From positions 1-22,682 of IMG/VR virus record IMGVR_UViG_3300009605_000161: a stretch of DNA of 22,682 bases. One strand, written 5' to 3'. The position numbers and the translations under genes are program-made. Within the stretch, counting starts at the first letter, position 1, and each line of letters opens with the position of its first letter. Under the pieces are notes generated by a model. That model did not search any database, was not told the origin of the DNA, and saw nothing but the letters and a program-made list of their open reading frames with translations. This DNA comes from a virus. Shown piece after piece: positions 7,399 through 20,738 of the stretch.

Positions 7399-8550
7399 AT
7401 GAGTAAGAAAAAGTGGACAATTTATGGTGCTATTGCCGCAGCCGTTCTGGTTGCTGCAATTGCGACACCCGTACTTGCAGATGAGCCTTCATATGAAGAC
7501 CTCACCGCTCGTTTGGATGCCGCAGAAGCACGAATTGCAGAATTGAACAAGTCTGAACCATCAGAGATGGATATCGCCAGAGCAAATGCCACTAAGGCAC
7601 TTGTTCGTGATGTTCTTGCTGATGCAGATGCTCGTTCAATGATGCAAGGCAACGGAAGCCCTGTTACAGTAAATGTACACGGATTTGTACAATCTCGCTA
7701 CACCTATAGTGGTGGTGGTGATGACGAAGCCAATCACGGTTTCGGTCTTCCCCGCGCCCATCTTGAACTTTCTGGAGACCTCTATAATTGGGGTTATGTA
7801 GTAAGTGGACAGTGGAGCGAAGGAGGAGAGTTTGACCTTTTGGATGCTTATGCAGAAGGTGGACTCTTTGGTGGAAATGTCCGTGTAGGACAATTCAAAG
7901 CACCGTTTATGCGTGAGGTACTTGTCTATCAGGCAGATACTCTTATGACAGAGCGTTCAATCGTGTCCAACCAGTTTGGTCAGGGTCGTTCGCAAGGTGT
8001 TCAGTATAGTCGTGATTTTGGTGTGGTAGATTTTGCTGCCGCTTACACCGATGGTTTCGATACTGCCAATGGCGCAGGAGTTCAGAACGGTCAGGCATTT
8101 ACTGCCCGTGCTGGATTCGATGTTGCTGATTGGTGGAATGTGGGTGCTGCCGTTTCATATAACGATTTGGTAGACACCGACTACACCACCTACACCCTTG
8201 ATACTAATGTATCATTCGGTGGAGGTCTTGACTTGACTGCTGCCTATGTTGCAACTAGCGGTGACGCTGGAGACAATTGGGGAACAACAGTTCAAGCAGG
8301 GTATCATTGCATGGATAACCTACAAGGTTTCGTTGCATATGAGTATGGTGAATTAGAAGATGTTTCAGAGAATCTTAGCATTGCAACTGTTGGTGCCAAT
8401 TATTGGTTCAACGATAATGTCAAGTGGACAACCGAATTAGGTTATGCACTAAATGGCATTAATGGTGCTTGGGATTTGGGAGAAACAGGTTGGCGTGCTG
8501 GTGACAGTGGCGAATATGTTATTCGTACCCAACTTCAACTTACTTTCTGA
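7399..8550 (+). CDS. Outer-membrane beta-barrel porin (phosphate-selective porin O/P-like)
   Basis: Predicted secreted 383-residue porin. Residues 1-27 are a clear signal peptide (basic MSKKK, hydrophobic core, cleavage after VLA). A short coiled coil follows (DLTARLDAAEARIAELNKSE), as in trimeric porins with N-terminal coils. From about residue 90 the chain is alternating amphipathic strands starting VNVHGFVQSRYTYSGG, rich in aromatic, Gly and Asp residues. It ends in QLQLTF, with the terminal Phe expected for BAM-directed outer-membrane proteins. The pattern resembles the OprP/OprO family, but substrate cannot be read. It sits in a cassette with its own sigma70-type promoter and terminator, unlike the phage genes around it, which suggests a moron-like acquisition from a bacterium. 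Confidence 0.85.
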   Translation: MSKKKWTIYGAIAAAVLVAAIATPVLADEPSYEDLTARLDAAEARIAELNKSEPSEMDIARANATKALVRDVLADADARSMMQGNGSPVTVNVHGFVQSRYTYSGGGDDEANHGFGLPRAHLELSGDLYNWGYVVSGQWSEGGEFDLLDAYAEGGLFGGNVRVGQFKAPFMREVLVYQADTLMTERSIVSNQFGQGRSQGVQYSRDFGVVDFAAAYTDGFDTANGAGVQNGQAFTARAGFDVADWWNVGAAVSYNDLVDTDYTTYTLDTNVSFGGGLDLTAAYVATSGDAGDNWGTTVQAGYHCMDNLQGFVAYEYGELEDVSENLSIATVGANYWFNDNVKWTTELGYALNGINGAWDLGETGWRAGDSGEYVIRTQLQLTF

Positions 8551-11439: not shown

Positions 11440-11447
11440 TATAAATA
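11440..11447 (+). promoter_or_regulatory. T4-type late promoter box before protease gene
   Basis: Exact TATAAATA. By T4 rules transcription would start near 11453, while the protease start is ATG 11457 (another ATG lies at 11452). The mRNA would then be almost leaderless with no room for a ribosome binding site. Confidence 0.6.
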
Positions 11448-11456
11448 CTTTATGGA

Positions 11457-12224
11457 ATGGTACTTAGGAGAACTGCATATTTCTTAGCAACTTTGTTATG
11501 TTTAGTAAGTTGCACTTCAACTCTACCTTTACCTACACCTCCCCAACAACAAAACCCAATACCAGAAGTCTTTGATCCTTTTGTTGCCACAAACAATGAA
11601 AACGATCCCTATCCTTTCGTTGGTTCTATTCATAGAGAAAATGGAAGTTTAGTAGGCGGCGGAGTTCTTATTGCACCCGATGTAGTTCTAACTGCTGGAC
11701 ATTGTATCGATAATAAAAAAATAGACTCAGTATATTTTGGAGAAATGTGTGTTCCTGTTTCCTCTACTCTTCTTCATCCTGAATATGAAATGTATGGAAG
11801 ACCTGTAAATGATATCGGCATTATTTTTCTAGAATATCCAGTAGATATTAACCCCATTTCCCTACATAATAATAGAGTATTGTGGAGATTCAGTGATATA
11901 ACAGTTATCGGATATTCGTTCGGATATAAAAAATACAGCAAGCCAAGTGTATTTCAATATTACGGAACAATACTTGAAGACATAAACGAAATAAAGTTTC
12001 TACCAAGACGGGCAACAATCTGGTTTGGTGATTCTGGCGGCGCAGTAATTGCTACACTAGAAGGAGAAGAAAGGTTAGTAGGAATAATAACATCATTCTT
12101 GACAGATGAATTTGGAATAGTCGAGTGTTCGGCTACACGAATTAAATTTTATAGAGGGTGGATTGAGGAGGTTCTAAATGAACAAGGATTGGACGGACGG
12201 GGTAGCCGAATGGGTGAACAATAA
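11457..12224 (+). CDS. Trypsin-like serine protease, predicted lipoprotein
   Basis: A 255-residue S1-family protease with a full catalytic triad: H82 in TAGHC, D119 in NDIGIIFL, and S193 in GDSGGAV. The N-terminus MVLRRTAYFLATLLCLVSCT is a lipoprotein signal with lipobox LVSC (lipidated Cys19), followed by a Pro/Gln-rich linker (LPLPTPPQQQNP). The mature enzyme should therefore be anchored in the host envelope, facing the periplasm or surface. The barrel spans about 50-235. A late promoter box lies just upstream, so it is probably made late. Possible roles are cutting host envelope proteins before lysis or blocking receptors; phage origin of such an enzyme is unusual. Confidence 0.88.
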   Translation: MVLRRTAYFLATLLCLVSCTSTLPLPTPPQQQNPIPEVFDPFVATNNENDPYPFVGSIHRENGSLVGGGVLIAPDVVLTAGHCIDNKKIDSVYFGEMCVPVSSTLLHPEYEMYGRPVNDIGIIFLEYPVDINPISLHNNRVLWRFSDITVIGYSFGYKKYSKPSVFQYYGTILEDINEIKFLPRRATIWFGDSGGAVIATLEGEERLVGIITSFLTDEFGIVECSATRIKFYRGWIEEVLNEQGLDGRGSRMGEQ

Positions 12225-12318
12225 AATTTACTTACTTTCAACACCATTGGGTGCAGGAGTAGGTATAGTAGGATTTGTTCTTGGAATATTAATAGGAAAA
12301 CTTATTTTATCGATGTAA
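12178..12318 (+). CDS. 46-residue glycine-zipper membrane protein overlapping the protease gene
   Basis: Starts at ATG 12178 inside the protease gene, with GGAGG at 12168-12172 well placed, and ends TAA 12316-12318. The N-terminal half is polar (MNKDWTDGVAEWVNNKIYLL). The C-terminal half is one membrane helix with Gly at short intervals (PLGAGVGIVGFVLGILIGKL), a glycine-zipper pattern that favours helix packing into oligomers. The good ribosome site and the 47-base overlap suggest co-expression with the protease. A small holin-like or regulatory membrane peptide fits, but no family is recognised. Confidence 0.7.
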   Translation: MNKDWTDGVAEWVNNKIYLLSTPLGAGVGIVGFVLGILIGKLILSM

Positions 12319-12325
12319 AATATTA

Positions 12326-12333
12326 GATAAATA
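12326..12333 (+). promoter_or_regulatory. Late promoter-like box before GIY-YIG gene
   Basis: GATAAATA, one mismatch from the T4 late consensus, ends five bases before ATG 12338, so a transcript from here would be leaderless, as at 11440. Confidence 0.4.
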
Positions 12334-12337
12334 GTAT

Positions 12338-12772
12338 ATGGAAGAAAACAATGGACACTGGAATAATTTACCTGATGACTTTAACTTTGATGATTGGTTT
12401 GGGTTTGTATACTGTATTACTCGTAAAGACACACAGAGAAAATACATCGGCAAAAAACAAACCAGTTCGTATCGCCGTAAGAAAGTCAAAGGCAGAACAA
12501 ACCGCAAAAAAGTAATTTCCGAATCTAACTGGAAAAAATATACTGGTTCTTGCGACGAACTCAATCAAGAAATAGAAGAACTTGGAAAAGATAAGTTCAC
12601 CTTCGAAGTCTTGAAACTATGCAAAACCAAAGGTGAACTTACTTTTTCAGAAGTAGAATATCAATTCAAATATGATGTTCTTACTTCTATACTAGAAAAT
12701 GGTGAGAGAGAATATTACAATTCTAATATTATGAGTCGTTGGTTCTCTTCTTCGTCTTACCTAAATTCTTAA
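12338..12772 (+). CDS. GIY-YIG family nuclease-like protein (SegE-like)
   Basis: A 144-residue protein with the paired strands of a GIY-YIG domain: GFVYCI at 22-27 and KYIGKK at 35-40. A basic stretch follows (SYRRKKVKGRTNRKK), then SNWKKYTGSCDELNQEIEEL, KFTFEVLKLC, GELTFSEVEYQF and a C-terminal IMSRWF. This matches the short SegE-type GIY-YIG proteins common in T4-like phages, which include homing endonucleases. R45/R46 and E105 or E107 are candidates for the catalytic Arg and Glu. No ribosome binding site is visible. Its last 44 bases overlap the convergent minus-strand gene. Confidence 0.8.
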   Translation: MEENNGHWNNLPDDFNFDDWFGFVYCITRKDTQRKYIGKKQTSSYRRKKVKGRTNRKKVISESNWKKYTGSCDELNQEIEELGKDKFTFEVLKLCKTKGELTFSEVEYQFKYDVLTSILENGEREYYNSNIMSRWFSSSSYLNS

Positions 12773-13685
12773 AATTATTTTTAATCTTAATCTGTGAAAC
12801 TATCTTCTTCGTCATTGGACTTTGCAATTCACTAGCAAAACCATTTCTACCAAAAATTTCTTGTCGCTCTTCGGTATCTAGATGCTCTTTCATCTCTTCT
12901 ATGAGTTCCACAATTTCTTCAATTGCTTTTTCGTATCGGCTGCCATTAACAAGCATCCAGCCAACTACTGCAATTGTTGCCACGAATCCAACAATTAAAA
13001 CAATCAACCCAACAGTAGCAATTTCTTCAAGATAGTATTGCGATGCGGCTGCAAACCCTACTGTCAATATACCTATTGCAAGTAAAACTGCACCAAGCCT
13101 ACCATTCACCCAAAAGGCAATGAAGGCACCGCCCACCAACATTCCGAACCCCATTACAAAGAATAGAGTAATATAATTATGGAGATTTTCTAGGGCTTCT
13201 CTGCGAACTTCCCTGTCGGAAGTCTCGTAGTCCGCAACTAGGTCCTCTAGTTCCTCGATCTGACCGACGGCTGCGCCAACTCTGTCGTTCGCCTGATCCA
13301 AATCTTCCAACGCTTCTTCGATCCGAACCTGTTCTAGCGCCGCATCGTCCACATGTTCCTTGATTGTTTCTGCGGAATTCTCGATGTTGTCCAGAGTTGG
13401 GTCGATGTTGTAATTGTGGTCGTCTGGAACGAGTGCTATCTCGTCTAGAATGGAATTCGCTTCCTCGTCTATGTTCTCCAGTGTCCCTGCTATCGAGTCT
13501 GTAGCGTCTGTGATTTCCTGAGTCTGCTCCGTCTGCTCTCTCACGCTGTCCACCACAGTTGAAGCGGTGTTCTCTGGAGTTCCATCGTGAGTCATCTGTT
13601 GGAGTGCTTCGCAACCCGCGCCGCTTACGAGAGTCATCAGTACGAGCATCTTCGTTAGGCGACTGGCTCTTTCTCCATTGAGCAA
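12729..13685 (-). CDS. Lipoprotein with periplasmic coiled coil and three C-terminal membrane helices (spanin-like layout)
   Basis: The open frame runs from 13766, but I place the start at TTG 13685. It has AAGGA close upstream and gives a compact signal peptide (basic n-region, then KMLVLMTLVSGAGC) with lipobox GAGC. ATG 13721 and 13649 are alternatives. After the lipidated Cys comes a long acidic coiled coil of about 140 residues, then three membrane segments (FFVMGFGMLVGGAFIAFWV; LGAVLLAIGILTVGFAAAS; IATVGLIVLIVGFVATIAVV), then a charged cytoplasmic tail. An outer-membrane lipid anchor plus coiled coil plus inner-membrane helices is the layout of a unimolecular spanin, though those have one helix. 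It is largely nested in the gene starting at 13839, and most of it uses GC-rich codons. Confidence 0.7.
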   Translation of the reverse strand: MLNGERASRLTKMLVLMTLVSGAGCEALQQMTHDGTPENTASTVVDSVREQTEQTQEITDATDSIAGTLENIDEEANSILDEIALVPDDHNYNIDPTLDNIENSAETIKEHVDDAALEQVRIEEALEDLDQANDRVGAAVGQIEELEDLVADYETSDREVRREALENLHNYITLFFVMGFGMLVGGAFIAFWVNGRLGAVLLAIGILTVGFAAASQYYLEEIATVGLIVLIVGFVATIAVVGWMLVNGSRYEKAIEEIVELIEEMKEHLDTEERQEIFGRNGFASELQSPMTKKIVSQIKIKNNFKNLGKTKKRTNDS

Positions 13686-13839
13686 ACCGTTCCTTTGCTT
13701 CTTCTGGTGAAATTTTGCCATCGGCGATTGCCGTTCTAAATCTCTGTCCAATCTTTTCTCTTTCATTATTTACCTCCGAGTCCTGTGCAACAATTGGTGT
13801 TGCTAATAATAATACTGCTAATGCAATTAGTGTTTTCAT
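13177..13839 (-). CDS. Secreted small protein; real start, uncertain C-terminus overlapping the lipoprotein gene
   Basis: ATG 13839 overlaps the upstream stop (ATGA) and has CGGAG before it, so the start is sound. Residues 1-19 are a signal peptide (MKTLIALAVLLLATPIVA, then QDSE). Residues about 22-60 look like genuine protein (EREKIGQRFRTAIADGKISPEEAKERFAQWRKSQ). After about residue 70 the chain becomes Arg/Ser/Gly-rich and lies in the +1 frame across the coding region of the lipoprotein. That part may be only a stop-free shadow in GC-rich DNA, or a real basic tail. A frameshift joining the two frames is a third option. The nested layout recalls Rz/Rz1 spanin pairs. Confidence 0.55.
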   Translation of the reverse strand: MKTLIALAVLLLATPIVAQDSEVNNEREKIGQRFRTAIADGKISPEEAKERFAQWRKSQSPNEDARTDDSRKRRGLRSTPTDDSRWNSREHRFNCGGQRERADGADSGNHRRYRLDSRDTGEHRRGSEFHSRRDSTRSRRPQLQHRPNSGQHREFRRNNQGTCGRCGARTGSDRRSVGRFGSGERQSWRSRRSDRGTRGPSCGLRDFRQGSSQRSPRKSP

Positions 13840-14900
13840 TTTTTATCTCCGTGAATTAAATAGGCCATTACACCTGTTGTTTTGTCTTGGATAACAATTG
13901 GTGCGCCAGGATTCTTATGGGCATAATCACGAATCTCTTGGTTATCAATGTTTTCCATATTTAATTTTCTGTTCCATCGTTCATATCGTTTTCTGCCGTG
14001 CATACAAGTATGATAATCGTCGCTGTTTAATTCAAATACTTCAGCACCAGCAAACTTTTTACGCTTTTTCTTTTTCTTTTTTCCTAGTATCGGGTCATAT
14101 CCCTGAACTGGACCTTCCCCACCAAAATGCGGAGACATTCCACCACCTACTGCATTCGTGGGCGTGGATTCATCAACGGATTCTTTGATTTTACCATACT
14201 GTGCAATTCTCTTTGCATCTCTATACATGTGCATATCAACAGAATCAACCACTTCATACCGATACTTAATTTTCCCACCACCATGATGATGTGTGTGCTG
14301 AACAACATAGTATGTTCTATCAGGACTTTGATTTGCAAGTTTCTGTGCAGATTTCTTTACTGGGTTTATTTCATCGCTTGCGAGAGTCAATGCTTCATCC
14401 AGTTCAACAGATTCATTTACAAGTTTACCTCTGCTCTTTTTCATATATTTCTTGATACCAGCACGCCACTTGAATTGAACACCCGTAACTGTTACTTTGT
14501 TCCCAACCCGATCACCTATACCGATAGAAGAATTTTCAATATCATAATCAAATTGCGCCGCTTTTCGATCATCAGGGAATTCAAATGTCAAGGTTTCCAT
14601 CGCCCTTTCTTCTACTTCTTCGCCTGGCGTATCTTCACGATAAGTATCGTCTAGTTCGTCGGTTGCTTCCTCGCCCGCACCACCTTCTTCAATTAAGAAT
14701 GGACGAATCTGAGAATCGTGCATTTCAACCTGCGTGCCATCTTGAAACTTTACTTTATAGACAGTATCATAACGACTAGTTCCACCAATAGAAACAACCT
14801 TGACAATTCTAGCCCTACGGTCACCCATCTGGATTGATTTGCCAAGCAAAATAGTTTCTATGATTGGCAGTTCTGTACTAAATCGTTTGAATTTTTTCAT
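13836..14900 (-). CDS. T4-like phage structural-type protein with small beta domain
   Basis: A 354-residue protein starting MKKFKRFSTELPIIETIL. Residues about 18-70 form a small beta domain (VYKVKFQDGTQVEMHDSQI) that recalls the one in the 8661-9521 protein, followed by an acidic linker. The middle holds a His/Gly-rich strand region (YYVVQHTHHHGGGKIKYRYE). A loop, TPTNAVGGGMSPHFGGEGP, of a kind I associate with T4-like structural proteins follows. After a Lys run (GKKKKKKRKK), the C-terminal domain has AGAEVFELNSDDYHTC and GRKRYERW. Head or core assembly is likely, but the exact role is unknown. It starts 23 bases inside the preceding gene, with AAGG upstream. Confidence 0.72.
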   Translation of the reverse strand: MKKFKRFSTELPIIETILLGKSIQMGDRRARIVKVVSIGGTSRYDTVYKVKFQDGTQVEMHDSQIRPFLIEEGGAGEEATDELDDTYREDTPGEEVEERAMETLTFEFPDDRKAAQFDYDIENSSIGIGDRVGNKVTVTGVQFKWRAGIKKYMKKSRGKLVNESVELDEALTLASDEINPVKKSAQKLANQSPDRTYYVVQHTHHHGGGKIKYRYEVVDSVDMHMYRDAKRIAQYGKIKESVDESTPTNAVGGGMSPHFGGEGPVQGYDPILGKKKKKKRKKFAGAEVFELNSDDYHTCMHGRKRYERWNRKLNMENIDNQEIRDYAHKNPGAPIVIQDKTTGVMAYLIHGDKK

Positions 14901-16139: not shown

Positions 16140-16169
16140 TTTATTTCTCCTAAATTATGTATATTGGCT

Positions 16170-18233
16170 TTATATTTCTAACAATTCAAAGCCAAAATTG
16201 ACATCTATTGATTCCAACTGTCGTTGGGGTTTCCTTTGTTCTGATAAAGTAAATGTCTTATTCACATTCACGCTATAATTAAGTGTTTCTAAAAATCTCT
16301 TACCTATAAGAACCAAGTATGTGTTGTCATCTCGGTCGCTTAAGTTAAAGAGAACATCTTTGTATTCTTTCTTGCCAAACTTTATATCAAATTTGACTAG
16401 ATATCGTTCTTCCCATTGGTCTGAACCGATATTAATTTTTTGAGTTTGTACGATTGGTTTAGTAAACTTCTTTCCAAGAATACTAAAGGACACATTCTTG
16501 CCCTTTGCTTTTACATTATCTGAATGAATAGAATTTACTGAACCATTCCCTGTATCTACTTTGGCTTTTAATTTACCAACACCCTTGACTGTGATGTATT
16601 CTACATAACCAATTTCCTTGGAAGTAAATTTCCAATTCTCTTTGTTAAGAATATGGTCGAGAACATAACCAACCAACTCTTCGCCGCTAAGTTCTTTTCC
16701 TTCGTGGCCTGGATGATATCCCATATACGGTGCGGCGCCAGAACCTGGCGAACCATTCACCTCTAGAATATAATGTTTTCCGTTGTGTGTGATATGGTCA
16801 ACACCTGCATAGTAACAACCAGATATCTTATATGCTTTTCTAATAAGGTCTTTTTCTTCTTGGCTCAACTTGTAGGGAGCAGTGTCATTACCCAATGCTT
16901 TATTGGTTCTAAATTCTTTCCCACCAGAAGATTTGATTCTTTTTACTGAAGCACAAATCTTACCATCTAGGACAAGGGTACGGACATCGTGTTTAATCTC
17001 CATATATTCCTGAAGGATAATCTCTGCTTCGTGCTTCCACAAGGACTGTAGAACGGATTTAAGGGACTCATAGGACTCAATTTTCGAAACTCCGATACCT
17101 TCAGCACCTGTAATCGTTTTTATGATAACAGGGAACTTGCCCCCGATCTTTTCAAGAGCAATGTCAATCGAATCTTCGTTATTCACAAAGGCTGTTCGTG
17201 GAGATGAAATTTGATTTTGTTCAAGTGCAAGTGCAGTAACCATTTTGTTCTGGCAAAATTGCATAGACTCAAGACTGTTTACCATAAACATTCCAACTTC
17301 CTGTAGCGTTTTTACCATACCCGTACCAGCATTATCAAGAATAGCCCCGCCGCGAACCAACGCAACGGTGTTGTCTATTTTTAGATTAATATTCTTTCCG
17401 TCGCCGCCATAATTATGAATAGTAATTTCGTTATCTTCCATATCCTTGTCTACAATAAATGCGTGGTCAGTATGCACGGCAAAGAAAGATACACCTTTCT
17501 TTTTACATACTTTTGCCAATCTTTCAATGGTATCAGACTTCTCATTATCTGTAGAAGATTTGGTAATAGCAATAACCGTTGGAAGGCTTTTGTCTTTTGC
17601 TTCCTCTAAACTAATCAGTCTATTCCAATCTTCTTCTAGTGATTCTCGCACACCCATTGCAGTTCTCAATTTTTTGTATAGTTGTTTTGCAATTATTTTG
17701 TTTCCTACGCCCAATTCAAAACTTTCATAGTCTCCCGCAACTGCGGCCGCTCTCATCTTTGAAGCAGACATTCCTTCGACTCCTTCTGCATCGGGGTCTC
17801 TCTGTCCTGCACTTCTTACTTCAAAGTGGTCAAATTGATATCCATCTGGTCCAACATATTTTGAAATACTTTTTTCTAATTCTGCTACTCTATCACCACC
17901 AACGACAAGAATAACTTTTTTATATCCTTCATCACTTAATTTCTGCATCATATAAAACGGATTTATTACAGACCTATCGTCTATAACATTTACTTTCCTG
18001 CCAAATATCTTTCTCATAAAACTAATTTTGTCTCTGGGCTTTAAAGGGTCTCTATTGTCGCCTGCCTTTCGACTTGGGTAAATACGATGCTCTGCTCTTT
18101 CCCTTCGGGCATTGTCAACCACCGCATCAACTAGTTTTTGATGACCAATTGTAGGTGGTTGAAAGCGCCCGAAGGTTACAACGATAGCCTTCGTTTTGTC
18201 TTCGTTCAGAAAATCTCTGACCGATTTACTCAT
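16170..18233 (-). CDS. Triple fusion: nucleotidyltransferase + RimK-like ATP-grasp ligase + RimB-like aspartic protease
   Basis: A 687-residue enzyme in three parts. (1) About 15-195: HIGH-superfamily nucleotidyltransferase, with VVTFGRFQPPTIGH (TIGH 28-31) and GMSASKMRA (164-172). (2) About 215-530: RimK-type ATP-grasp amino-acid ligase, with nucleotide loop IIKTITGAEGIGV (K372), LQEYMEIKHDVRTLV, YYAGVDHI and metal residues in ILEVNGSPG (E491, N493). (3) About 545-675: RimB/DUF785-like retropepsin fold, with KAKVDTG (D560) and LIGKRFLE. RimK adds glutamates to a protein C-terminus (ribosomal S6 in E. coli) and RimB acts with it; here both sit in one chain. The N-terminus MSKSVRDFLNEDK resembles a T4 capsid-targeting peptide. 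ATGA overlap with the upstream small gene. Substrates unknown. Confidence 0.87.
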   Translation of the reverse strand: MSKSVRDFLNEDKTKAIVVTFGRFQPPTIGHQKLVDAVVDNARRERAEHRIYPSRKAGDNRDPLKPRDKISFMRKIFGRKVNVIDDRSVINPFYMMQKLSDEGYKKVILVVGGDRVAELEKSISKYVGPDGYQFDHFEVRSAGQRDPDAEGVEGMSASKMRAAAVAGDYESFELGVGNKIIAKQLYKKLRTAMGVRESLEEDWNRLISLEEAKDKSLPTVIAITKSSTDNEKSDTIERLAKVCKKKGVSFFAVHTDHAFIVDKDMEDNEITIHNYGGDGKNINLKIDNTVALVRGGAILDNAGTGMVKTLQEVGMFMVNSLESMQFCQNKMVTALALEQNQISSPRTAFVNNEDSIDIALEKIGGKFPVIIKTITGAEGIGVSKIESYESLKSVLQSLWKHEAEIILQEYMEIKHDVRTLVLDGKICASVKRIKSSGGKEFRTNKALGNDTAPYKLSQEEKDLIRKAYKISGCYYAGVDHITHNGKHYILEVNGSPGSGAAPYMGYHPGHEGKELSGEELVGYVLDHILNKENWKFTSKEIGYVEYITVKGVGKLKAKVDTGNGSVNSIHSDNVKAKGKNVSFSILGKKFTKPIVQTQKINIGSDQWEERYLVKFDIKFGKKEYKDVLFNLSDRDDNTYLVLIGKRFLETLNYSVNVNKTFTLSEQRKPQRQLESIDVNFGFELLEI

Positions 18234-18361: not shown

Positions 18362-19516
18362 TTAAACTGTTTTTAATTGCTGTAACCTTTTCTCTGGTAT
18401 ATTTAGACCAGATATTATGGTATACAACCTTAAACTATCTTTTCCATCCTCATAAATACCCCGATGCAGAGTTGCATTTGGACATAACGAAGATAGCGTA
18501 TCGAATCCATACGATAAACTATCCATTAATCCTGGCGTATTTTCCATAATATCCTTACCGCCAATTGCCACACAGGCGGCAACACTAGAGTCTGAAAGTT
18601 CTACATCAGTAAGAAGTGTCTTTTCAAGATTTGTCTTGATTGCACTTGATACCTTTTGTTCGTCATCAAACTCTTTTAATTTCGCTACACCCATAACCAT
18701 TACGCCACCACACCGCAAGACGCTGGAATAGTCTGTTGGGTCAAATGATGTATATGGTGATGGGTTGTTTGTGAGTACATTGAATACATGGAATAGACCA
18801 GAGATGGTATTATTAACTGTTGGCCAGAATTGTTTAACCGTTAATCCTTTATACATTCTTTCAATCTTGGAATTGTCAAGAATGATAAGAGGAGAAATGG
18901 TTTTTTCTTTTGCACATCCACCAACAACGCTCAACACTTCATGTGCATTTTTTGACACTACTGGTGAATTTGCTTCGCCTCTGGTTGGCAAAGACATAAC
19001 TACTCCAACTCGTTTTTCTGGATCGTCGTGCCCAATATACTTCATATATTTCTTGGCAGTTTCAATTAAAACGAGGACTGAACCACTTCCGCTGCCACCA
19101 CCAGCACCGACACAGACAAAAAGATGATCGACATTACTACCATAGACTCTTCGCATAAGATCGAATACATTTTGTTTATATTTGTTTGCCGCTTCATTGC
19201 CTTTATCCATATCCTTTCCTGCACCCTGTTCACCCACATCAAATAACATTTTTTGTTCGGCAGGCAATTCAAGAGTATCTAAATCGTGACGAGAAGTATT
19301 TACTGCAATACATTTTTTATATCCTCGTTCATAAAATGCTTTTGCAATTCTGCCACCACCTTGCCCAGAACCAATCCAAGCGAAGGTTTGAGAACCACCA
19401 GATTCGTCTTCTACCGCAGTTTCTTCATCTTCTGGAATTTCATAATCTTCCAAATCAATGTCTGGTATTTCTAAATCTGGAATTTCTGGAATTTGATTTT
19501 CTAATTCTTCGCTCAT
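18362..19516 (-). CDS. FtsZ/tubulin-superfamily GTPase
   Basis: A 384-residue filament-forming GTPase candidate. Residues 1-42 are an acidic tail of repeated EIPD-like units (EIPDLEIPDIDLEDYEIPED). The GTPase begins at about 45 (FAWIGSGQGGGRIAKAF). The tubulin signature is GAGGGSGSGS at 137-146. The T7 loop that completes the neighbour's active site reads FDPTD at 258-262 with both aspartates (D259, D262), so hydrolysis should work. Jumbo phages use the tubulin PhuZ to position DNA and capsids; this protein is not obviously that family and looks at least as close to FtsZ. AAGGA precedes the start. It lies between the ligase-like gene and the triple fusion. Confidence 0.85.
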   Translation of the reverse strand: MSEELENQIPEIPDLEIPDIDLEDYEIPEDEETAVEDESGGSQTFAWIGSGQGGGRIAKAFYERGYKKCIAVNTSRHDLDTLELPAEQKMLFDVGEQGAGKDMDKGNEAANKYKQNVFDLMRRVYGSNVDHLFVCVGAGGGSGSGSVLVLIETAKKYMKYIGHDDPEKRVGVVMSLPTRGEANSPVVSKNAHEVLSVVGGCAKEKTISPLIILDNSKIERMYKGLTVKQFWPTVNNTISGLFHVFNVLTNNPSPYTSFDPTDYSSVLRCGGVMVMGVAKLKEFDDEQKVSSAIKTNLEKTLLTDVELSDSSVAACVAIGGKDIMENTPGLMDSLSYGFDTLSSLCPNATLHRGIYEDGKDSLRLYTIISGLNIPEKRLQQLKTV

Positions 19517-19529
19517 TTATTTTTCCTTT

Positions 19530-20738
19530 TTATTTGTTCCAATTCTTAGGAACAGTAAAGTTTGCTTTACTAAATTCTAATCTATCTACTAATTTTAATA
19601 CTGTGTTACTTACTCTATCCACAGCAACAAAACCTTCTGGTGAAGTTACTCTAAATCCGTCAGCCGTCCTGATAAAAGTTCCTATTTCTTTTACCTGTTC
19701 AAGTTTCCGAATAATAAATACCTTCGCTTCCGCCAAGGCGGCGTGCAACGCAAAAATAGAATCCAGTTTTGTAGAATTCTTGCTTAAATATGCAAGTAAA
19801 TCTTTTTTGATTGTTTCTTTTCGCTCCTTTGCACTATCCGTCTTTAGCGTATCTATGGCTGCCTGCATTTTTGAGTCAATATAATTAATGAACCCAGCCG
19901 CAGAACCAACCTCTCCATCTCCCTGACGGATAAGGGCATTACCATAGATTTTTACCTCTGAAATAATCATAGGCTTACCACGCAGTGTATCAAGATATCT
20001 TTTTACACCGCCTGCTTGTCTCTTAATTTTTGCAATCAAAGAATTAATTGTGGACGATTCTGTACTTGTAAATGTTGCTGTACCCGAAGTGTCTCGAAAA
20101 TCGGCATCCTGAAACCAGACATCCCTAGTCTTTGCGAGAGAACCAACTCTAGGGTTGAAGGATGCTTTTAATCCTTTAATTGTCTTTCCTGTATATTTTG
20201 TGTGCCATACTACTCCTATCTTTGCATTAGTAATTGATTTCGCTGTATCTGAACCAGCGGGTACTGCATAGGTAATCGTATTCGGGGTAAAAGTAAGATA
20301 ATTCTCTCCGTCGATTTTTGTCGATGATGTATCATCTGTAAACATAATATCGCCTTGAAGAATTCCTCTAATACCCAATTTACCAAGGTACTTTAAAGCA
20401 ACTTTTAACTTGCTTGCTAATACAGCGGCGTGTCCGTGATTTTTGTCGATATCTGCATTCGTATAGTTGACTTTTGGGGTAACATTAAAAAGAGATTTTG
20501 TTGCCACAAAAAACTTTTTGGTTTCGGGGTGTATTCCTGCAAACACCGCAGGTGCGCCATCCCATTTAACGGTAACATTTACTCCTGATGATGCATTTCC
20601 ATGAAGCATTTCAGCCACTGATTCTAAAAAAGATATGGCTGTAGCAACACCTGAAGAACCTTCGTTCCACACAGTATCTTCAAGATGTTCCATATGAACA
20701 TTCTTCGATTCAGCAATAAACGTAGTAAATACCTTCAT
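19530..20738 (-). CDS. Ligase-like covalent nucleotidyltransferase candidate; conserved marine T4-like phage protein
   Basis: A 402-residue protein that I recognise as a conserved marine T4-like phage family without known function. In it I see motifs of the RNA/DNA ligase superfamily: KWDG at 58-61 (motif I, lysine nucleotidylation site) followed by APAVFAG; RGILQGDIMF at 124-133 (motif III-like); EGFVAV at 368-373 (motif IV-like); and LKLVDR at 381-386 (motif V-like). Their order is right, but the spacing between III and IV is long, with a helical insert near 285-355. The N-terminus MKVFTTFIAESK resembles the T4 internal-protein capsid-targeting peptide (MKTYQEFIAEA). First gene of the minus-strand operon. 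The ligase reading needs structure prediction. Confidence 0.68.
   Translation of the reverse strand: MKVFTTFIAESKNVHMEHLEDTVWNEGSSGVATAISFLESVAEMLHGNASSGVNVTVKWDGAPAVFAGIHPETKKFFVATKSLFNVTPKVNYTNADIDKNHGHAAVLASKLKVALKYLGKLGIRGILQGDIMFTDDTSSTKIDGENYLTFTPNTITYAVPAGSDTAKSITNAKIGVVWHTKYTGKTIKGLKASFNPRVGSLAKTRDVWFQDADFRDTSGTATFTSTESSTINSLIAKIKRQAGGVKRYLDTLRGKPMIISEVKIYGNALIRQGDGEVGSAAGFINYIDSKMQAAIDTLKTDSAKERKETIKKDLLAYLSKNSTKLDSIFALHAALAEAKVFIIRKLEQVKEIGTFIRTADGFRVTSPEGFVAVDRVSNTVLKLVDRLEFSKANFTVPKNWNK

Follow-up and report, generated by a model that had tools for sequence, protein, structure and literature searches.

A predicted outer-membrane lipoprotein protease of family S1, preceded by a late-promoter motif, in uncultured T4-like phages

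The analyzed stretch of DNA (the window) is the IMG/VR virus record IMGVR_UViG_3300009605_000161, with a length of 22,682 bases. At 11457..12224 (+), it encodes a protein of 255 aa with an ATG start, which the open reading frame, the Pfam matches and a structural model designate as a lipoprotein serine protease of family S1. The Pfam Trypsin profile matches at E 5.4e-12 (46.4 bits, cut-off 20.6), and Trypsin_2 matches at E 8.7e-7, also above its curated cut-off. The catalytic residues are His82 (codon 11700..11702, +, context LTAGHC), Asp119 (11811..11813, +, context NDIG) and Ser193 (12033..12035, +, context GDSGG). The first-pass annotation had described this triad as canonical and intact, and the comparison agrees: none of the 75 distinct proteases (from the best 80 of 257 relatives together with the first 22) lacks His, Asp, Ser or GDSGG. 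A chance triad is ruled out by this conservation and by Pfam matches above the cut-off.

The protein starts with a type II signal peptide, whose lipobox codons (L16-V17-S18-C19) are located at 11502..11513 (+). Both the lipobox and the proline-rich linker previously reported for this protein were recovered. The Cys of the LVSC-19 motif is aligned in all 75 distinct proteases (best 80 of 257 relatives plus the first 22), and seven prolines lie within the 25 residues after it, a number that ranges from two to seven among 22 proteases. Lipoboxes and hydrophobic N-terminal regions were tabulated for these 22; a few proteases have non-classical lipoboxes (NVGC, AQGC and VCAC). An Asp at position +2 after the lipobox Cys acts as an inner-membrane retention signal, a rule from E. 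coli that is unproven in planctomycetes; it occurs in none of the 22 proteases checked. By its signal, the window protease is a predicted lipoprotein of the outer-membrane type, and both its lipidation and its location in the outer membrane are probable on this basis.

The family extends well beyond this record. A second contig, 99.8% identical over 16,765 bases (16.8 kb), carries the same protease gene. Scanning viral contigs with the single protease protein matched three contigs, while a scan with the neighboring lipoprotein (LIPO, described below) gave 32 records, 27 of which carry the protease. In three of the remaining five, the sequence stops within the lipoprotein gene or less than 1 kb beyond it; L037 and L038 have the lipoprotein and no protease despite 6-8 kb of further sequence, and tail genes come after the lipoprotein there. 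A scan with an alignment of 22 proteases finally gave 257 relatives. The best 80 of these form the wider-family set (79 loci with a called protease ORF, 72 distinct), and its union with the first 22 yields the 75 distinct proteases. Records overlap (L001, L031 and L132 are one contig, L043-L045 one identical protein, and there are others), and distinct proteins are counted only where stated. The start codons of seven of the 75 were re-set by script, and at least one of them (L195) is doubtful. In the 25 closest protease pairs, dN/dS is 0.11-0.28 (Nei-Gojobori), which indicates purifying selection on the protease. The family belongs to T4-like viral contigs and is not the oddity of one phage.

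The UvsX protein of the window matches phrog_97 (E 6.9e-89), and its best deposited relative is that of pelagiphage HTVC008M (64.6% identity). A DnaB-type helicase, a primase, ThyX and a ribonucleotide reductase were also read from the sequence, and by its gene content the window is a fragment of a T4-like phage. The LIPO scan led to near-complete relatives, G265 (134,816 bases) and G281 (126,210 bases). G265 encodes a gp55-type late sigma factor (phrog_234, E 4.4e-59), a gene absent from the window fragment, as well as head scaffold, gp23-type major head and tail-tube proteins. The neighbors of the protease gene (UvsX, DnaB-type helicase, ThyX and ribonucleotide reductase), together with the gp55, gp23-type head and tail-tube genes of the relatives, support the earlier statement that it is phage-encoded. 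Host contamination is ruled out by the T4-like replication genes and by syntenic relatives on many viral contigs. G265 (L103 14503-14967) also carries a protein of the Destabilase (invertebrate-type lysozyme) family (Pfam E 2.6e-14), which is the probable endolysin of this phage group.

An AlphaFold2 model of the protease, built with 22 sequences, reached a pLDDT of 82.2 and a pTM of 0.77. Its best PDB match in Foldseek is activated protein C (E 8.1e-13), and the top match in VIA-align, where the leading matches lie within 1 Z of each other, is porcine pancreatic elastase (Z 25.4, rmsd 2.0, 196 residues aligned). The modeled protein has the chymotrypsin double-barrel fold of family S1 (PA clan), and residue 39 of the model aligns with chymotrypsin residue 17. 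The designation "trypsin-like" is thus correct for fold and family; for specificity, it does not stand. The counterpart of trypsin Asp189 (aligned position 187, six before the catalytic Ser) is Thr in the window protease; over the 75 distinct proteases (best 80 of 257 relatives plus the first 22), this position is S in 37, T in 16, H in 15, P in three, F in three and Y in one, and Asp in none. Furthermore, no zymogen-type IVGG N-terminus (I/V-V-G-G) was found in the 22-row protease alignment. A trypsin proper (S1A, with Lys/Arg specificity) was therefore rejected, as the missing Asp189 makes this specificity unexpected. Column 214, aligned by hand with position 216, holds F, M, Y or L in the family. 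With this bulky residue and no Asp189, cleavage after small residues is likelier than after Lys/Arg, and the pocket is more plausibly narrowed and elastase-like. An HtrA/DegP protease (S1C) was also rejected: the protein has 255 aa, no PDZ match in Pfam and a GDSGG motif, and the DegP model scores it at 15.4 bits against a cut-off of 720. This candidate enzyme is predicted to be proteolytically active.

Directly upstream of the gene, TATAAATA, a T4-type late-promoter motif, lies at 11440..11447 (+), and its first T precedes the protease ATG by 17 nt. There are two exact copies on the plus strand of the window (22.7 kb). In PMC2984593, TATAAATA is given as the T4 late promoter and NATAAATA as the motif in cyanomyoviruses. 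The pattern TATA[AC]ATA is found no more than 40 nt before the start in 13 of 22 distinct proteases (shuffle mean 0.10, maximum 2, 300 shuffles) and in 36 of the 75 from the best 80 of 257 relatives and the first 22 (shuffle mean 0.42, maximum 3, 200 shuffles). In 28 of these 36, the spacing between motif and ATG is 16-17 nt. The exact motif is absent from this interval in the remaining 39 of the 75, several of which have near-variants recognizable by eye (CATAAATA, CCTAAATA and CATATATA) that lie outside the scored counts. The same motif is located ahead of three G265 genes (scaffold, major head and head-tail adaptor) and, by eye, ahead of a tail-tube-like gene of G281. On the other strand of the window, the late-promoter-like motif TATACATA (16156..16163, -) stands at the head of a gene run (16139 down to 12729) whose last gene is that of the convergent lipoprotein. 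The protease is probably a T4-type late gene, expressed late from its motif. In T4, late transcription starts about 13 nt after the first T of the motif; with a T4-like start site, a motif 16-17 nt before the ATG would leave the protease mRNA almost leaderless. Many virion genes, by comparison with the 16-17 nt at the protease, have a longer motif spacing with a ribosome site.

In the wider family, the gene order is ThyX, ribonucleotide reductase, variable genes, protease, RuvC-like resolvase (phrog_159, E 2.6e-30) and convergent genes. In 61 of 79 loci (best 80 of 257 relatives), the resolvase gene has the same orientation as the protease gene and comes within 1.5 kb after it. In the window and several relatives, this place is taken by a SegE-type GIY-YIG homing endonuclease (12338..12772, +; Pfam PF19835, E 7.5e-39). 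As the constant RuvC neighbor is a DNA-processing gene, the gene order alone is no proof of a lysis cassette. One 33-kb contig, IMGVR_UViG_3300020183_000277 (L190 and L204), carries two ThyX-Nrd-protease-RuvC blocks in opposite orientation and is possibly a chimaeric assembly.

The convergent gene of the window, LIPO (12729..13766, -), encodes a protein with a lipobox, a coiled coil and three transmembrane (TM) segments, a candidate for a unimolecular-spanin-like protein. A convergent gene for a lipobox or membrane protein is present in 45 of the 55 loci whose downstream sequence extends for at least 3 kb among the best 80 of 257 relatives: LIPO in 27, f11 with f9 in 15 and f9 alone in three, while 10 have none. 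The small protein f11 has a lipobox in all 16 distinct members, and f9 is a small membrane protein; no known function was assigned to f9, f11 or f14 from Pfam and PHROG. All 23 LIPO proteins have the lipobox Cys and contain no further Cys after it; 22 have three hydrophobic segments and the other one has two, and a long tail follows these segments. The AlphaFold model of LIPO is poor (pLDDT 58.7), and tblastn gave no match for it in phage records. According to PMC6139136, u-spanins combine an N-terminal lipobox with a C-terminal TM segment, and no periplasmic Cys is present in 58 of them. LIPO shares the lack of a periplasmic Cys with the u-spanins as described there; its lipobox is combined with three TM segments, u-spanins having one. 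Its resemblance to a unimolecular spanin in the window's group is thus weak and by topology only. An ORF of 220 aa with a signal peptide (13177-13839, -) overlaps the N-terminal half of the LIPO gene in another frame, and similar overlapping ORFs begin about 24-25 codons upstream of the LIPO ORF in the window, L002 and L003; this ORF is either a genuine gene that overlaps LIPO or a shadow frame rich in Arg. In blastn of 11457-13766, short matches alone were found, one of them under a GIY-YIG gene.

Upstream of the protease and on the same strand, the window encodes an outer-membrane porin-like protein with a signal peptide and planctomycete relatives (7399..8550, +). In 17 of 27 loci, the 3 kb ahead of the protease contain a porin gene in the same orientation, at a distance of about 100-130 bp in several. 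No match to it was found by tblastn in 50,697 phage records. Its closest matches are in Phycisphaerales and other Planctomycetota MAGs: four of six loci gave named planctomycetes, one a Myxococcaceae and one a bacterium. A profile of 14 viral porins matched 45 of 246 genomes at E <= 1e-10 in a search of Planctomycetota alone, the best match (2.7e-64) being in a Phycisphaerales genome. The porin therefore makes a planctomycete the likely host of the window's group. To our knowledge, few phages are known for Planctomycetota. In the wider family, a porin was found in only three of the ten records tested, some of the other seven being fragments; the proposed host is hence confined to the window's group. 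On the same count, a fixed porin-protease pair, which had looked strong in the first group, was given up as the main account. The protease itself has no close host homologue: matches at E <= 1e-10 were found in three of 392 Planctomycetota genomes, and partial matches at E <= 1e-6 in four of 248 Phycisphaerae genomes.

Compared with chymotrypsin and elastase, the phage protease shares the double beta-barrel, the H-D-S order and GDSGG; it differs by the lack of Asp189 and IVGG, by the N-terminal signal for a lipid anchor and by an identity of ~20% to solved structures. The secreted trypsins of Planctomycetota, the likely host phylum of the window's group, also have an S1 domain, but three of the four Phycisphaerae ORFs examined end in a C-terminal hydrophobic sorting tail, which we take to be PEP-CTERM-like, instead of having an N-terminal lipobox. 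With the o- and u-spanins (lambda Rz1 and T1 gp11), the protease has in common the outer-membrane lipoprotein signal and a Pro-rich segment after the lipidated Cys; spanins, however, contain no enzyme, and the spanin-like topology here, as PMC6139136 defines it, belongs to the convergent gene 12729-13766.

Among phage proteins, matches are weak at most. The PHROG 9683 "protease" profile gives 8.6e-6 for the window protease and 0.0019 for the G265 protein, and tblastn with the L192 protease reached Rhizobium phage vB_RleM_P10VF at E 0.09. The proteases of this T4-like phage and its relatives have an S1-type domain and a hydrophobic N-terminus as well, but that of P10VF has GMSGG instead of GDSGG, lacks a lipobox and adjoins head genes rather than RuvC and an envelope gene. 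The L206 protease gave weak matches in S. aureus phages (best E 6e-3), most of them annotated as exfoliative toxin A, and the window and L002 proteases had no match in tblastn against 50,697 phage records. The remark that such a protease is uncommon for a phage is accordingly valid for deposited records and fails within its own lineage, where a single viral-contig scan gave 257 relatives. Proteases of family S1 are a known kind, as are exported proteases of phages. A lipid-anchored, near-constant S1 family with a late motif in T4-like phages was nevertheless not found in phage records, PHROGs (weak matches aside) or the literature, which was searched at the level of listings for phage lipoprotein or trypsin-like proteases, phage porins and planctomycete T4-like phages. 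New here are the late motif before the protease, the convergence on lipobox or membrane-protein genes and, in the window's group, a planctomycete-like porin in the same cluster.

The family, fold, intact triad, lipoprotein signal, conservation, late motif and conserved neighborhood of the protease are all computed features. The first-pass annotation had offered help in lysis, destruction of receptors or cleavage of a host defence or secreted factor as functions; of these, help with lysis or release fits best, given the late motif and the convergent spanin-like gene. Our preferred reading, held tentatively and at somewhat less than an even chance, is that the protease is a late outer-membrane lipoprotein that cuts envelope proteins and helps the release of progeny. 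It would be transcribed late from the motif observed directly before its start codon, exported by Sec and lipidated at Cys19, as its signal predicts. The flexible, Pro-rich tether would then hold a protease facing the periplasm or the surface on the outer membrane, where it may cleave periplasmic, outer-membrane or surface-layer proteins late in infection. Together with the convergent, membrane-bridging spanin-like lipoprotein and the phage lysozyme, this would ease the exit of progeny. Several observations count against release: the spanin-like gene converges on the protease gene instead of sharing an operon with it, all three membrane gene families are absent from 10 of 55 loci (best 80 of 257 relatives), 39 of 75 proteases (the same set plus the first 22) lack the exact late motif, and L037 and L038 have LIPO without the protease.

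The main rival, which we consider rather improbable though a serious contender, is removal of the receptor or exclusion of superinfection: once anchored, the protease would shave the phage's own receptor, possibly a host porin or surface protein, off cells and debris, which would prevent progeny from adsorbing again and from superinfecting. As part of the same proposal and with the same standing, the phage porin in the window's group would keep outer-membrane transport going. The outer-membrane lipoprotein signal suits this function, the late motif corresponds to the time when debris turns into a trap, and 17 of 27 loci have the planctomycete-related porin at most 3 kb upstream in the same orientation (101-130 bp away in several). 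On the other hand, the protease is constant while the porin was found in just three of ten wider-family records tested, and superinfection-exclusion functions are usually expressed early. Receptor removal shares its steps with release and differs in the benefit, so that sequence cannot separate the two.

Processing of the phage's own exported proteins, for example the convergent lipoprotein or the porin, by local cleavage in the envelope appears unlikely. A convergent lipobox or membrane-protein gene in 45 of the 55 loci with room for it (best 80 of 257 relatives) and a nearby porin speak for it, but the neighboring membrane proteins differ by group (LIPO versus f9/f11), and the protease also occurs in the 10 loci that have none of them. 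Even less probable is a counter-defence or host-signalling protease that cuts an envelope immune sensor or a secreted host factor. In PADLOC, the models of LmuA (5.5e-11) and Avs1b (1.8e-5) do match in part, but these matches cover the protease domain only and reflect the shared S1 fold and no more, so that a defence protein was rejected; moreover, the late motif and the predicted export to the envelope speak against such a role, and neither an association with known anti-defence genes nor a sign of a defence target was seen. Least credible of all is nutrient acquisition, with an ectoprotease making peptides that enter via the phage porin: several relatives have a porin gene of the same orientation some 100-130 bp ahead of the protease gene, but the protease has a late motif, the porin has none (TATA[AC]ATA within 60 nt before its start in 0 of 19), and no porin was found in seven of the ten wider-family records tested, some of which are fragments.

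Gram-negative-type phage lysis is normally described in terms of holin, endolysin and spanin. If release is indeed the function, a conserved late envelope protease would add a protein-directed enzymatic step to this scheme. A broader version of this idea, which we regard as speculative and on balance doubtful, is that, in this uncultured and widespread T4-like lineage, outer-envelope proteolysis is a dedicated, near-core release step beyond holin, endolysin and spanin, carried out by a late tethered S1 protease with a membrane-bridging lipoprotein. It may have arisen for protein-rich envelopes such as those of planctomycetes, and may be coupled to host-porin replacement in one group. The enzyme of this family has an intact active site, for which S193A is a simple genetic control, and there are sharp predictions of where it is located (C19A) and when it is made (late). 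The family is, in addition, a marker of a large T4-like phage group with one branch that probably infects members of the Planctomycetota.

Other proteins of these phages deserve mention. The window encodes a Tubulin/FtsZ-family GTPase with a TubZ-like C-terminal domain (18362-19516, -; Pfam Tubulin 5e-11, TubZ-like_C 6.5e-6), as well as one protein that unites a nucleotidyltransferase, a RimK-type ATP-grasp domain (1e-31) and an ATP-dependent Zn-protease-like domain (4.9e-7) (16170-18233, -). Many proteins in L028 (12052-17507) and in the window (13836-14900 and 19530-20738) start with MKSFKQY-like leaders. Such leaders resemble the cleaved capsid-targeting leaders of T4 internal proteins, and the proteins that carry them may be injected.
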